NCBI RefSeq assembly: GCF_009695655.1
Contig: NZ_VUNM01000002.1
Coordinates: 62,001 to 126,000, forward strand
Direction of reading: 5' to 3'
Length of the DNA stretch: 64,000 nt
From: Sharpea porci
Lineage (GTDB): Bacteria > Bacillota_I > Bacilli_A > Erysipelotrichales > Coprobacillaceae
The position numbers were made by a program, and so were the translations under genes. This document shows, piece after piece, positions 2,946 through 60,847 of the stretch; within the stretch, counting starts at the first letter, position 1, and each line of letters begins with the position of its first letter. The notes below the pieces were generated by a model. The model did not search any database. It saw only the letters and a program-made list of their open reading frames with translations, and was not told the DNA's origin.

Positions 2946-3443
2946 CTAGCTAAAGAAGCGCATTTTGAGCACTGTAAAGGTATTGGAAAGAATGGTCATG
3001 ATATCAAAAGCTGAGGCAGTGTAATTATGGAAATGCAGATCATAGATAAACCATAGGGCAACCGTAAAGATAATCACACTCTTCATAACATAGGGATTCT
3101 TAGCATCGACAAAGATAGTAAAGATGACAGTTGCCAGAATAGGAAGCCAGCCAATCATGCCATTCATTCCAGCAAGAAGACTAATAGCAACCTGCAAGAT
3201 AATAAAGCCTATTTTTACAGGTGTTTCCATTGGCTTTTTGAGTGAATAAAGATTTCTTAAGATACCAACAACATTCGAAATCCCGCCTGATGTTGCTTTC
3301 AGCATGAAGTTGGCGATGCCCATTAAGGTGAATTGTAAACATTGTACTTCTAAGACATGCTTATTTTCCTTAATCAAGCCAATTGCTACCATCACAATTG
3401 CCCCTAGCAGGGAAATAATATTGGCAATAAAAGTTAGATTCAT
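2946..3443 (-). CDS. YgjV-family inner membrane protein, copy 2 of a tandem pair
   Basis: Small polytopic membrane protein of the Imp-YgjV family, whose function is not established. About five or six hydrophobic segments span the sequence. Landmarks shared with the upstream paralogue are the N-terminal IANIISLLGAIVMV, the block QCLQFTLMGIANFML, the basic loop NLYSLKKPM, and IGWLPIL. The ATG at 3443 is preferred because GGAGG lies 5 bases upstream; the ATG at 3455 overlaps that site. It follows the paralogue at 3516 by about 70 bases and is probably co-transcribed from the leader at 4067-4195. A transport role is only an inference. Confidence 0.8.
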   Translation of the reverse strand: MNLTFIANIISLLGAIVMVAIGLIKENKHVLEVQCLQFTLMGIANFMLKATSGGISNVVGILRNLYSLKKPMETPVKIGFIILQVAISLLAGMNGMIGWLPILATVIFTIFVDAKNPYVMKSVIIFTVALWFIYDLHFHNYTASAFDIMTILSNTFTVLKMRFFS

Positions 3444-3515: not shown

Positions 3516-4034
3516 TTATGAAAGAGTAGGGGTTGTTTTTCTTGCGCGCTGCATCATTGTTAGGGTAGCAGCGTTGGTGATAACACCGAGTATATCAAAT
3601 GAAGCGCTAGTGAAGTTCATATAATAGAAGTCATAGAAAATCCACATTGCACCTGTAATGATGACTGAAAGCTTAAAGAATGACTGGTCCTTACTGTCAC
3701 ATGTGAAGGTGAAGATGGTATTGGAAATAATTGGCAACCAGCCAATCCATCCATCAATGCCAGCATAGAGAGATAAGCCAACTTGTAAAGTAGAAAGTGC
3801 TATTTTAATAACAATGCTCATTGGTTTGTTGATGGAATAAATATTTCTTATAATGCTTAAGACATTGGAAATAGAACCGGTGATTGCCCCAAGGATCAAG
3901 TTGGCAATTCCCATTAATGTAAACTGTACGCACTGTCCGGCAAGAACTTTTTTGTTGTCCTTGACAAAGCCAATCAGCACCATAATAATGGCTCCGCATA
4001 GTGATATGATATTCGCTAATACAATAATATTCAT
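3516..4034 (-). CDS. YgjV-family inner membrane protein, copy 1 of a tandem pair
   Basis: Paralogue of the protein at 2946-3443, with the same length and segment order: IVLANIISLCGAIIMV at the N-terminus, QCVQFTLMGIANLIL, NIYSINKPMSIVIK, IGWLPII. Sequence similarity between the copies runs along the full length, so the pair arose by tandem duplication and has since diverged. The start is the ATG at 4034 behind AGGAG; a TTG one codon upstream is less likely. The transcript begins with a structured leader ending in a terminator-like hairpin, so expression is probably set by conditional termination. Known members have no firm function. Two copies may form a heterodimer. Confidence 0.8.
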   Translation of the reverse strand: MNIIVLANIISLCGAIIMVLIGFVKDNKKVLAGQCVQFTLMGIANLILGAITGSISNVLSIIRNIYSINKPMSIVIKIALSTLQVGLSLYAGIDGWIGWLPIISNTIFTFTCDSKDQSFFKLSVIITGAMWIFYDFYYMNFTSASFDILGVITNAATLTMMQRARKTTPTLS

Positions 4035-4066
4035 CAATTTCTCCTCTTCTAAAGGAGCGTTGCGGT

Positions 4067-4160
4067 ATGAAAAAAGACCGGAACCTCCTTTTACTGAATG
4101 TCATTGATCGCGATTCCGGTCGCTTGTGGGTCGCCAATCCAATTATTGGCATAAATGACT
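4067..4160 (-). promoter_or_regulatory. candidate riboswitch: three-way-junction leader plus terminator
   Basis: Read on the minus strand, the RNA can form a P1 closing stem GTCATT/AATGAC (4159-4154 with 4105-4100), a P2 hairpin GCCAAT/ATTGGC (4150-4145 with 4138-4133) and a P3 hairpin GCGA/TCGC with loop CCGGAA (4123-4110). The strand joining P2 and P3 is GACCCACAA. A competing stem GACCGGAA/TTCCGGTC (4121-4114 with 4083-4076), followed by six U, has the form of an intrinsic terminator and shares bases with P3. I could not match it to a riboswitch class that I know. Confidence 0.55.
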
Positions 4161-4166
4161 TTTTAT

Positions 4167-4195
4167 AAGCTAGCATAGGCTTTTTTATGTGTCAA
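4167..4195 (-). promoter_or_regulatory. promoter of the YgjV pair
   Basis: On the minus strand, TTGACA (4195-4190), a 17-base spacer and TAGCTT (4172-4167). The expected transcription start near 4160 puts the P1 stem of the leader at the very 5' end of the RNA. Confidence 0.6.
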
Positions 4196-4214
4196 GTATA
4201 TGATGGATTGGTAG

Positions 4215-5786
<1,572 letters not shown>

Positions 5787-34183: not shown

Positions 34184-34258
34184 GGTTCCATAGCCAAGTT
34201 GGTAAGGCAGAAGACTGCAACTCTTCGATCGTCGGTTCAAGTCCGGCTGGAACCTCCA
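34184..34258 (+). tRNA. tRNA-Cys(GCA)
   Basis: Acceptor stem GGTTCCA/TGGAACC, anticodon loop CTGCAAC (GCA), encoded CCA. First gene of array 1 and not repeated in array 2. Confidence 0.95.
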
Positions 34259-34260
34259 TT

Positions 34261-34349
34261 GCCCTGGTGGCGAAATTGGTAGACGCACGGGACTTAAAAT
34301 CCCGCGGACTTCAAACTCCGTGCCGGTTCGACTCCGGCCCAGGGCACCA
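34261..34349 (+). tRNA. tRNA-Leu(TAA)
   Basis: Long-variable-arm tRNA with loop CTTAAAA (TAA), acceptor GCCCTGG/CCAGGGC, encoded CCA. Present only in array 1. Confidence 0.95.
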
Positions 34350-34369
34350 TTCTTACGGTGCTTATTTGT

Positions 34370-34446
34370 CGGGAAGTAGCACAGCTTGGTAGTGCACCTG
34401 GTTTGGGACCAGGGGGTCGCAGGTTCAAATCCTGTCTTCCCGACCA
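34370..34446 (+). tRNA. tRNA-Pro(TGG), copy 1
   Basis: Loop TTTGGGA (TGG), acceptor CGGGAAG/CTTCCCG, encoded CCA. Identical copy at 37892. Confidence 0.95.
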
Positions 34447-34452
34447 TGTGAT

Positions 34453-34528
34453 GGGGCTTTAGCTCAGCTGGGAGAGCGCCTGCTTTGCACGCAGGAGGTC
34501 AGCGGTTCGATCCCGCTAAGCTCCACCA
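34453..34528 (+). tRNA. tRNA-Ala(TGC), copy 1
   Basis: Loop TTTGCAC (TGC), acceptor GGGGCTT/AAGCTCC, encoded CCA. Identical copy at 37975. Confidence 0.95.
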
Positions 34529-34548
34529 TTTCATTTGTCATCGAATAT

Positions 34549-34625
34549 GGCGGGATAGCTCAGTTGGCTAGAGCATTCGGTTCATACCCGGAGTGTCGAG
34601 GGTTCGAATCCCCCTCCCGCTACCA
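34549..34625 (+). tRNA. tRNA-Met(CAT), elongator, copy 1
   Basis: Loop TTCATAC (CAT), acceptor GGCGGGA/TCCCGCT, encoded CCA. The body resembles Bacillus elongator tRNA-Met. Identical copy at 38071. Confidence 0.85.
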
Positions 34626-34637
34626 TTTGATTCCGTA

Positions 34638-34714
34638 GGACCCTTAGCTCAGTTGGTTAGAGTCGGCGGCTCATAACCGCTTGGTCGTAGGTTCGAGTCC
34701 TACAGGGTCCACCA
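34638..34714 (+). tRNA. CAT-anticodon tRNA, probable tRNA-Ile2 (lysidine type)
   Basis: Loop CTCATAA (CAT), acceptor GGACCCT/AGGGTCC, encoded CCA. Its body closely resembles Bacillus tRNA-Ile2, in which TilS converts C34 to lysidine to read AUA. The identity is by resemblance only. Absent from array 2. Confidence 0.75.
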
Positions 34715-34725
34715 TAATTTTATAT

Positions 34726-34802
<77 letters not shown>

Positions 34803-34805
34803 TTT

Positions 34806-34883
34806 GGTCTGGTAGTTCAGCTGGTTTAGAATGCCGCCCTGTCACGGCGGAGGTCGCGGGTTCGAGCCCCGTCCAGACCGCCA
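34806..34883 (+). tRNA. tRNA-Asp(GTC), copy 1
   Basis: Loop CTGTCAC (GTC), acceptor GGTCTGG/CCAGACC, encoded CCA. Identical copy at 38244. Confidence 0.95.
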
Positions 34884-34888
34884 GTTAT

Positions 34889-34964
34889 GGTCTCTTAGCT
34901 CAGTCGGTAGAGCAGGGGATTGAAAATCCCCGTGTCGCTGGTTCGATTCCGGCAGAGACCACCA
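34889..34964 (+). tRNA. tRNA-Phe(GAA), copy 1
   Basis: Loop TTGAAAA (GAA), acceptor GGTCTCT/AGAGACC, encoded CCA. Identical copy at 38327. Confidence 0.95.
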
Positions 34965-34988
34965 TTCAATGAAAGTCAAATAGATCAT

Positions 34989-35081
34989 GCGGCTCTACCC
35001 AAGTCTGGCTGAAGGGACCGGTCTTGAAAACCGGAAGGCATCGCAAGGTGTGCGGGGGTTCGAATCCCTCGAGCCGCGCCA
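34989..35081 (+). tRNA. tRNA-Ser(TGA), copy 1
   Basis: Long-variable-arm tRNA with loop CTTGAAA (TGA), acceptor GCGGCTC/GAGCCGC, encoded CCA. Identical copy at 38427. Confidence 0.95.
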
Positions 35082-37787: not shown

Positions 37788-37864
37788 GCGCCAGTAGCTC
37801 AACTGGATAGAGTGCTTGTCTACGGAACAAGAGGTTACGGGTTCGATTCCTGTCTGGCGCGCCA
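37788..37864 (+). tRNA. tRNA-Arg(ACG)
   Basis: Loop CTACGGA (ACG, A34 expected to become inosine), acceptor GCGCCAG/CTGGCGC, encoded CCA. Heads array 2; absent from array 1. Confidence 0.95.
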
Positions 37865-37891
37865 TTTCTTAAAAGATTATTCGATACAAAT

Positions 37892-37968
37892 CGGGAAGTA
37901 GCACAGCTTGGTAGTGCACCTGGTTTGGGACCAGGGGGTCGCAGGTTCAAATCCTGTCTTCCCGACCA
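37892..37968 (+). tRNA. tRNA-Pro(TGG), copy 2
   Basis: Identical to 34370-34446. Confidence 0.95.
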
Positions 37969-37974
37969 TGTGAT

Positions 37975-38050
37975 GGGGCTTTAGCTCAGCTGGGAGAGCG
38001 CCTGCTTTGCACGCAGGAGGTCAGCGGTTCGATCCCGCTAAGCTCCACCA
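37975..38050 (+). tRNA. tRNA-Ala(TGC), copy 2
   Basis: Identical to 34453-34528, including the flanking spacers. Confidence 0.95.
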
Positions 38051-38070
38051 TTTCATTTGTCATCGAATAT

Positions 38071-38147
38071 GGCGGGATAGCTCAGTTGGCTAGAGCATTC
38101 GGTTCATACCCGGAGTGTCGAGGGTTCGAATCCCCCTCCCGCTACCA
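38071..38147 (+). tRNA. tRNA-Met(CAT), elongator, copy 2
   Basis: Identical to 34549-34625. After it the Ile2-type gene of array 1 is missing. Confidence 0.85.
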
Positions 38148-38163
38148 TTTAAGAATTTCATAT

Positions 38164-38240
<77 letters not shown>

Positions 38241-38243
38241 TTT

Positions 38244-38321
38244 GGTCTGGTAGTTCAGCTGGTTTAGAATGCCGCCCTGTCACGGCGGAGGTCGCGGGTT
38301 CGAGCCCCGTCCAGACCGCCA
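38244..38321 (+). tRNA. tRNA-Asp(GTC), copy 2
   Basis: Identical to 34806-34883. Confidence 0.95.
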
Positions 38322-38326
38322 GTTAT

Positions 38327-38402
38327 GGTCTCTTAGCTCAGTCGGTAGAGCAGGGGATTGAAAATCCCCGTGTCGCTGGTTCGATTCCGGCAGAGACCAC
38401 CA
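38327..38402 (+). tRNA. tRNA-Phe(GAA), copy 2
   Basis: Identical to 34889-34964. Confidence 0.95.
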
Positions 38403-38426
38403 TTCAATGAAAGTCAAATAGATCAT

Positions 38427-38519
38427 GCGGCTCTACCCAAGTCTGGCTGAAGGGACCGGTCTTGAAAACCGGAAGGCATCGCAAGGTGTGCGGGGGTTCG
38501 AATCCCTCGAGCCGCGCCA
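38427..38519 (+). tRNA. tRNA-Ser(TGA), copy 2
   Basis: Identical to 34989-35081, as is the terminator after it. Confidence 0.95.
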
Positions 38520-46551: not shown

Positions 46552-46626
46552 GCCGCATTCGTATAACGGCTATTACATCTGCTTGCCATGCAGAAGATGC
46601 CGGTTCGATTCCGGCATGTGGCTCCA
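46552..46626 (+). tRNA. tRNA-Gly(GCC), copy 1
   Basis: Loop TTGCCAT (GCC), acceptor GCCGCAT/ATGTGGC, encoded CCA. Confidence 0.94.
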
Positions 46627-46653
46627 TTAGTTATTACAATACAAGCAATAAAT

Positions 46654-46728
46654 GCCGCATTCGTATAACGGCTATTACATCTGCTTGCCATGCAGAAGAT
46701 GCCGGTTCGATTCCGGCATGTGGCTCCA
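46654..46728 (+). tRNA. tRNA-Gly(GCC), copy 2
   Basis: Identical to copy 1, with an unrelated spacer. Confidence 0.94.
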
Positions 46729-46771
46729 TTTATTATGCTTGTACTTTGTAAGTTTGCATCTTAAATATAGC

Positions 46772-46846
46772 GCCGCATTCGTATAACGGCTATTACATCT
46801 GCTTGCCATGCAGAAGATGCCGGTTCGATTCCGGCATGTGGCTCCA
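46772..46846 (+). tRNA. tRNA-Gly(GCC), copy 3
   Basis: Identical to copies 1 and 2. Confidence 0.94.
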
Positions 46847-59542: not shown

Positions 59543-60847
59543 ATGTGGTTCAATAAGAGTGTTTTCTATCAGATCTATACATTAAACTTTTGTGATGCAC
59601 CTAGCTTCAATGATGGTGTAGTTGAAGAACATCGTATCTTGAGAGTGTTATCATTTAGTGATTATTTAAAAGAATTAGGAATTAAGGCTGTCTATTTCAA
59701 TCCGATCTTTTCGAGTGATCACCATGGCTATGATACTCGTGATTATCGTCGCTTAGATGAACGCTTAGGCCATAATGAGGATTTTAAGAAGGTTGTGGAT
59801 GATCTTCATAAGAAAGGTATGAAGGTTGTTCTTGATGGTGTTTTCAACCATGTGGGAAGAGGCTTCTTTGCTTTTGAAGATGTCAAAAGTCATCGTGAAA
59901 ATAGTCGCTATAAAGACTGGTTCCATATAGATTTTCATGGTAATTCTGATTATGATGATGGCTTCTGGTATGAAGGATGGGAAGGACATTATGAATTAGT
60001 CAAACTTAATCTAGATAATCCGGAAGTTCAGAATTATCTTAAGGATTCAGTAAAATTCTGGATTGAATATTTCGATATTGATGGTATTCGTCTTGATGTT
60101 GCCTATTCATTACCACGTTGGTTCATGGCTATGCTTTCTGACTTTGGGCGTAGCTTCAAGCCTGATTTCTTCATGCTTGGAGAAGTACTTGGTGATAATG
60201 CGGGTTATATGTTTGATGAAGGACACCTGGATGCCATCACAGATTATCCTGGTTACAAAGGTATGTGGAGTAGTTTTAATTCATTAAATATGTTTGAAAT
60301 TGCCCATACGTTAAAACGTAATATGTTTGATATGTATCGTGGTAAAAGCTTACTCACTTTCTTGGATAACCATGATGTTGATCGTATTGCAAGCAAGCTA
60401 ACAGATAAAAAGAAATTGCCATTACTCTTTGCCTTGCAGCTGACATTGCCAGGTATTCCATGTATTTATTATGGATCAGAATGGGGAACTGAAGGCAAAA
60501 AAATTCCTGGGCAGAGCGATGATAGCTTGCGTCCAGCCTTCGAGAAACCAGAGCCAAATGAATTAACAGAATATATTGCCAAGCTGATTCATTTAAGAAA
60601 TGAGCATCAAGCCCTTAATAGTGGACAGTTTAAAGAACTTCTTTTGACAAATAAACAATATGTGTTTGAAAGAGAAGCGGAAGGAGAAAGAATTATCGTT
60701 GCTTTAAATATTGATGATGCGCCATTTGTTGCACATTTCAATGCCAATAGTGGGACAGGTGAAGACTTACTGACACATGAAATGCATGACTTTGGAGCTG
60801 GCAGTACTTTAGCACCACTTTCTATTTCTATTTGGAAAACAGAATAA
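59543..60847 (+). CDS. alpha-amylase family (GH13) glycosidase, maltodextrin-type
   Basis: Cytoplasmic GH13 enzyme acting on alpha-glucans. The TIM barrel starts directly (SVFYQIYTLNFCDAP). Region I is VVLDGVFNHVG, the nucleophile D~185 is in GIRLDVAYSLP, the acid/base E~214 in FMLGEVLGD, and the transition-state D~278 in FLDNHDVDRIA. IYYGSEWGTEG follows. There is no signal peptide and no N-terminal dimer domain. At 434 residues it is short for neopullulanases. Likely products are glucose and maltose from maltodextrin. It stands alone. Confidence 0.9.
   Translation: MWFNKSVFYQIYTLNFCDAPSFNDGVVEEHRILRVLSFSDYLKELGIKAVYFNPIFSSDHHGYDTRDYRRLDERLGHNEDFKKVVDDLHKKGMKVVLDGVFNHVGRGFFAFEDVKSHRENSRYKDWFHIDFHGNSDYDDGFWYEGWEGHYELVKLNLDNPEVQNYLKDSVKFWIEYFDIDGIRLDVAYSLPRWFMAMLSDFGRSFKPDFFMLGEVLGDNAGYMFDEGHLDAITDYPGYKGMWSSFNSLNMFEIAHTLKRNMFDMYRGKSLLTFLDNHDVDRIASKLTDKKKLPLLFALQLTLPGIPCIYYGSEWGTEGKKIPGQSDDSLRPAFEKPEPNELTEYIAKLIHLRNEHQALNSGQFKELLLTNKQYVFEREAEGERIIVALNIDDAPFVAHFNANSGTGEDLLTHEMHDFGAGSTLAPLSISIWKTE

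Follow-up and report, generated by a model that had tools for sequence, protein, structure and literature searches.

A putative ON riboswitch on the purine scaffold, with a 2'-deoxyguanosine-type pocket, upstream of a ygjV gene in Sharpea porci

The window analysed here, a stretch of 64,000 nucleotides from Sharpea porci (contig NZ_VUNM01000002.1), carries on its minus strand two genes for Imp-YgjV membrane proteins: ygjVa (3516-4034, 172 amino acids, Pfam PF10688 at E 5e-20, Shine-Dalgarno sequence at 4046-4041) and ygjVb (2946-3443, 165 amino acids, PF10688 at E 4e-25). The leader studied here lies between ygjVa and a divergent glycoside hydrolase family 1 (GH1) gene, and is transcribed toward ygjVa. 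Its promoter can be read directly at 4167-4195 of the minus strand, with TTGACA at 4195-4190, a 17-nucleotide spacer and an extended -10 element TGcTAGCTT (TG at 4175-4174, TAGCTT at 4172-4167). Apart from changes in the spacer, S. azabuensis has the same promoter. Its position leads us to expect a transcript start at about 4160, within a base or two of the first stem of the leader (P1). On the other side of the intergenic region, just upstream of the GH1 gene, the cre-like palindrome TGAAAGCGTTTCA (4268-4280) suggests catabolite control of that divergent gene.

Between ygjVa and ygjVb we found a terminator-like hairpin (3517-3498) and, by promoter scan, a promoter-like site with the elements TG-TAGAAT; S. 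azabuensis shares its sequence TATGTTAGAATA. The second gene therefore probably has its own promoter, at about 3492-3465, and the leader would mainly control ygjVa. The AlphaFold2 model of YgjVa has seven helices and a pLDDT of 92. Compared with the PDB it gave no match at E 0.001, SWEET and SemiSWEET proteins appearing only at E 2-4, and a PnuC/SWEET-type fold for YgjV was dropped despite the high pLDDT.

The leader contains a purine-riboswitch-type aptamer (4100-4159, minus strand), recognised by RNAfold, by a covariance model without Sharpea rows and by compensatory changes in its three stems. These are P1 (GTCATT/AATGAC, 4159-4154/4105-4100), P2 (GCCAAT/ATTGGC, 4150-4145/4138-4133) and P3 (GCGA/TCGC, 4123-4120/4113-4110), all on the minus strand. 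Loop L2 (AAUUGG, 4139-4144) and loop L3 (CCGGAA, 4114-4119) are predicted to kiss through GG:CC, by analogy with known purine riboswitches; L2 GG and L3 CC are conserved in nearly all rows of our alignments A5 and A8, and are too invariant for covariation. Downstream lies an intrinsic terminator (4070-4121, minus strand) with arms GACCGGAA (4121-4114) and TTCCGGTC (4083-4076) followed by six T (4075-4070). Its 5' arm consists of the 5' strand of P3 together with L3, so terminator and aptamer are mutually exclusive. The first 85 nucleotides fold into exactly the three-stem structure (-15.4 kcal/mol), and the fold of the complete leader is the terminator (-25 to -27 kcal/mol). When prefixes of increasing length are folded, the aptamer is the optimum at 76-84 nucleotides and the terminator takes over from 92 nucleotides, once its 3' arm has been made. 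The first-pass annotation had already described the TTGACA promoter on this strand, the compact three-stem fold and the six-U terminator sharing bases with P3, and all three are borne out here. It had also placed both ygjV genes under the leader, which holds for the first gene and is doubtful for the second, given the hairpin and promoter-like site between them.

Folding energies are not unusual (z = -0.34 for the 85-nucleotide aptamer and -1.82 for the full leader), and we therefore relied on conservation to show that the leader is functional. A core of 68 nucleotides (4162-4095) is identical at all 68 positions in S. azabuensis. Between the same two species, third codon positions of ygjVa are 62% identical and the upstream intergenic DNA 73%. 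Taking the third-position rate as a rough neutral yardstick, the chance of 68 identities is about 6e-15. Among 15 distinct sequences, 95.8% of the pair cells are standard, versus 70.6% in shuffles and 26-50% when the alignment is slid; the sliding controls of the test thus fail. Compensatory changes occur in all three stems, and 14 of the 16 pairs changed on both sides. The four distinct ygjV-linked sequences alone have such changes at half of the pairs (8/16). While the stems of the relatives vary in this compensatory manner, L2 (AAU.GG) and L3 (CC..AA) are kept, as are the bases of the junction.

The Sharpea core was turned into a covariance model (R1), with which we searched 316 genomes of the order. 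Two convincing relatives were found, L029 (E 3e-9) and L030 (E 2e-6), and a third, L053, came from scanning the loci around ygjV genes. L030 and L053 each immediately precede a ygjV gene. L029 comes right after a different ygjV, in the same orientation, with no ygjV 3' of it. L053, also registered as L118, passes the Rfam Purine family RF00167 with 44.5 bits (cut-off 37), L030 is just under that cut-off with 31.3 bits, and L029 (also L117) is almost the same as L118 outside the pocket. The weaker R1 matches (L031-L038, E 0.001-0.1) were set aside as chance: the four alignments that were read all lack the pocket or the greater part of a helix, and none of these matches recurs with a second model. 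That model, R2, built from five rows including Sharpea, reaches ordinary purine riboswitches in the order and across the class. A pattern search of the viral_contigs set gave no match, and no ygjV was found on plasmids.

A third model, R3, was built from 21 relatives, 18 of which are aptamers of the U51 type of purine riboswitch located away from ygjV, with two ygjV-linked variants included. It has no Sharpea rows and matches the leader in the window with 58.2 bits (E 4e-13), its alignment A8 having been made via R2, which contained Sharpea. No other element of this kind occurs in the genome, in which the leader has E 1.6e-11. The next match in the window (60280-60336, plus strand, 17.6 bits, E 0.13) is probably due to chance. 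Since the relatives beside ygjV form bridges to RF00167, a model without Sharpea finds the leader and the stems covary, we conclude that the leader is a member of the purine-riboswitch superfamily (Rfam clan CL00123, comprising RF00167 and RF01510).

Rfam itself does not reach this leader. At the gathering cut-off it gave nothing meaningful in the window, RF00167 and RF01510 had no match at E <= 10 in positions 4000-4300, and RF00167 had none in the genome at E <= 0.01. Purine-scaffold variants do exist below the detection limit of Rfam. The first-pass annotation had called for an Rfam search and for a covariation test of P1-P3 that might have refuted its aptamer; the former yields no direct match of the leader to a known class, and the outcome of the latter favours the structure. 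Its reading of the leader ahead of YgjV as a riboswitch-type three-way junction that competes with a terminator stands, and its view of the class as unassigned does not: the exclusion of the purine class is overturned by the intermediates beside ygjV (L053/L118, L030 and L029/L117). Elsewhere in the window, two tRNA arrays at 34184-35078 and 37788-38516 look like a duplication, with the same order and mostly identical Rfam scores, and three tRNAs at 46552-46843 share a single score.

In the YgjV tree, the riboswitch-linked proteins form one subclade (support 87/91) together with YgjVb, with members from genomes G205 and G208, and with aptamer-less members from Oscillospiraceae. In most of the Oscillospiraceae genes of this subclade (L013-L023), a strong promoter precedes a conserved GCTGTTTACAGA and a terminator right before ygjV (e.g., CTGTCCGGC..GCCGGACAG-T6), at about 70 to 20 bases from the gene. 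These leaders gave no usable Rfam match and no R1 match, nor did the four tried with R3 match; they are very short, attenuator-like and unrelated to the Sharpea leader. Genome G249 has the order leader, ygjV, epimerase-like gene at a place syntenic with the leader of its sister genome G250. The latter genome carries the C51-type riboswitch with its terminator (L029, at L085 3638-3698, minus strand) and no ygjV 3' of it, and the gene behind the leader seems to have been lost or replaced. In the literature that was searched, no purine-type riboswitch is described together with YgjV; as far as checked, ygjV is a new associated gene for the superfamily.

Pocket positions are numbered after the Bacillus subtilis xpt aptamer. 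The Sharpea pocket has J1/2 UAU (U22, A23, U24) and J3/1 GAU-C74, and its J2/3 strand GACCCAC (4126-4132, minus strand) reads G46, A47, C48, C50, C51, A52, C53, one base short of the usual eight. C51, in place of U51, is at 4128, A52 at 4127 and C53 at 4126. The base beside A52 is a C whether the missing base is put at 48/49 or at 51. According to alignment A5, the equivalent of C74 is at 4106, and it is predicted to form Watson-Crick pairing with the ligand's guanine face. The corresponding strand is GUUCCAC in L030, GAUCCAC in L029 and GACCCAC in both Sharpea species. The ordinary purine riboswitches of the order (30/30) have an eight-nucleotide J2/3 of the form GU[UCA]UCUAC, with U51, and none of the 30 has the combination of C51 and a seven-base J2/3, which occurs in three variant lineages (Sharpea, G099 and G250). 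This type was found only beside ygjV genes, in a small sample of independent sequences where G099 and G250 are fragmented assemblies. The sister leader L118 has an intact guanine pocket with U51 (GUUUCUAC) upstream of its ygjV, so control of ygjV need not mean 2'-deoxyguanosine. Sharpea has further departures: J3/1 is GAUC (U, not A, before C74), P1 has U-A in place of A-U as its junction pair, and a short P3 leaves A54 and A55 unpaired. The pocket is therefore no copy of a proven class.

We propose that the leader is a transcription-attenuating ON riboswitch on the purine scaffold, with a 2'-deoxyguanosine-type pocket, that controls ygjVa, and give this reading a probability of about 0.6. The ligand would be 2'-deoxyguanosine or a similar guanine nucleoside, because GACCCAC is close to the GACCCGC of a 2'-dG-I match (L135) and because of published work on position 51. 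L135 scores 86.5 bits with RF01510, has J1/2 CAU and a C22-G52 pair, and the family match suggests a Mesoplasma-type genome. The base C58/C51 is critical for the selectivity of nucleoside over nucleobase, the change U51C alone turns the preference of a guanine riboswitch to deoxyguanosine, and U22, C51 and C74 form the first-shell triad of 2'-dG-II (PMC8872408).

In the proposed mechanism, RNA polymerase would make the aptamer first. With the ligand bound (most likely 2'-deoxyguanosine, possibly guanosine), P1, P3 and the L2-L3 kiss would stay formed and hold the 5' arm of the terminator (P3/L3), and transcription would continue into ygjVa. Without it, TTCCGGTC would invade P3/L3, the terminator would form and transcription would stop. 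An excess of the nucleoside would then lead to synthesis of YgjV, which might plausibly export, import or otherwise handle it. This role of the protein is inferred from its control, and the switching direction in the cell from the folding models. In L030 the 5' arm of the terminator is the 3' strand of P1 and in Sharpea it is P3/L3; in both, a ligand-stabilised aptamer would block the terminator, which predicts two ON switches that are differently built. In L053, the predicted fold keeps the terminator clear of the aptamer. For YgjV (PF10688), an uncharacterised family of membrane proteins, a guanine-nucleoside pocket would provide a concrete and testable substrate hypothesis.

Some alternatives keep the purine scaffold and change the ligand. 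The leader might still sense free guanine, the changes in the pocket being tolerated drift: C74 and U22-A52 are kept, and the sister leader with the intact GUUUCUAC pocket also precedes ygjV. However, the three diverged lineages all share the paired change of a J2/3 shorter by one base and C51, the Sharpea core is frozen at 68/68 positions instead of drifting, and U51C is reported to switch the preference to deoxyguanosine (PMC8872408), which makes this rather unlikely. A distinct ligand class for some other guanine-faced compound, such as a pterin or a guanine nucleoside that is oxidised or otherwise modified, would fit J3/1, the P1 junction pair and the base of P3, which differ from those of 2'-dG-I and 2'-dG-II, the association with ygjV, so far as checked a novelty in the superfamily, and the repeated diversification of the scaffold (PMC9295807). 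Yet nothing positive points to any such ligand, and J2/3 is so near to that of 2'-dG-I that 2'-deoxyguanosine is the simpler guess; we regard this alternative as unlikely too. A terminator that happens to fold into three stems, or a protein binding site, would agree with the ordinary folding energies (z of -1.82 and -0.34) and is nearly refuted by the perfect conservation, the covariation in all stems and the homology to purine riboswitches. Finally, we rejected a leader-peptide attenuator, which would read the core as VIYANNWIGDPQATGIAINDIQ in a frame open through it in both species, since there is no ATG, GTG or TTG start with a Shine-Dalgarno sequence, the window has a TAA two codons before GTC ATT, and third positions are frozen like the rest, the relatives showing stem compensation instead.

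Beyond the 2'-deoxyguanosine-type switch that we favour, one may tentatively imagine a further ligand class of the purine scaffold dedicated to YgjV, sensing whichever guanine nucleoside or modified guanine is carried across the membrane by YgjV; we regard this as a possibility of low probability. If true, the recent change between a guanine-type (G249) and a C51-type (G250) pocket inside a single genus would provide a natural minimal pair for studying how ligand specificity evolves. The aptamers of G249 and G250 nearly match except in L2 and J2/3, and the pair is a natural experiment on how the pocket changes its ligand.

Among the known classes, 2'-dG-I (RF01510, Mesoplasma florum) shares with the leader the three-way junction, L2 GG and L3 CC, C74, and the seven-base J2/3 GACCC-x-C with C51. 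It differs by its C22-G52 pair, which is U22-A52 in Sharpea, and the leader stands apart from it by J3/1 GAUC, the U-A junction pair of P1, the short P3, the ygjV gene and the lack of a direct Rfam match. The genome of L135 (G661) encodes two more purine-scaffold variants, L138 (GACUCCAC) and L142 (GAUUCCAC), both with C51 and an eight-base J2/3. The triad U22, C51 and C74 is common to the leader and 2'-dG-II, whereas in the latter the junction pair of P1 is G-C and J3/1 contains UC as a two-base insertion (PMC8872408), where the leader has U-A and GAUC. Guanine-I riboswitches (RF00167), to which the leader is linked via L118 and L030, have the same architecture with U22, A52, C53 and C74. They differ by U51 and a J2/3 one base longer, the GU[UCA]UCUAC form being absent from the leader, and their logic is usually OFF whereas that of the leader is predicted to be ON. 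Xanthine-II, guanine-II and 2'-dG-III are rare variants of the same scaffold in Firmicutes, predicted to be ON switches with terminators. They differ from the leader in that xanthine-II carries U51G together with insertions in J2-3 and J3-1, guanine-II retains U51 and has an insertion in J2-3, and 2'-dG-III precedes nucleoside hydrolase genes; the purine scaffold has diversified repeatedly (PMC9295807).
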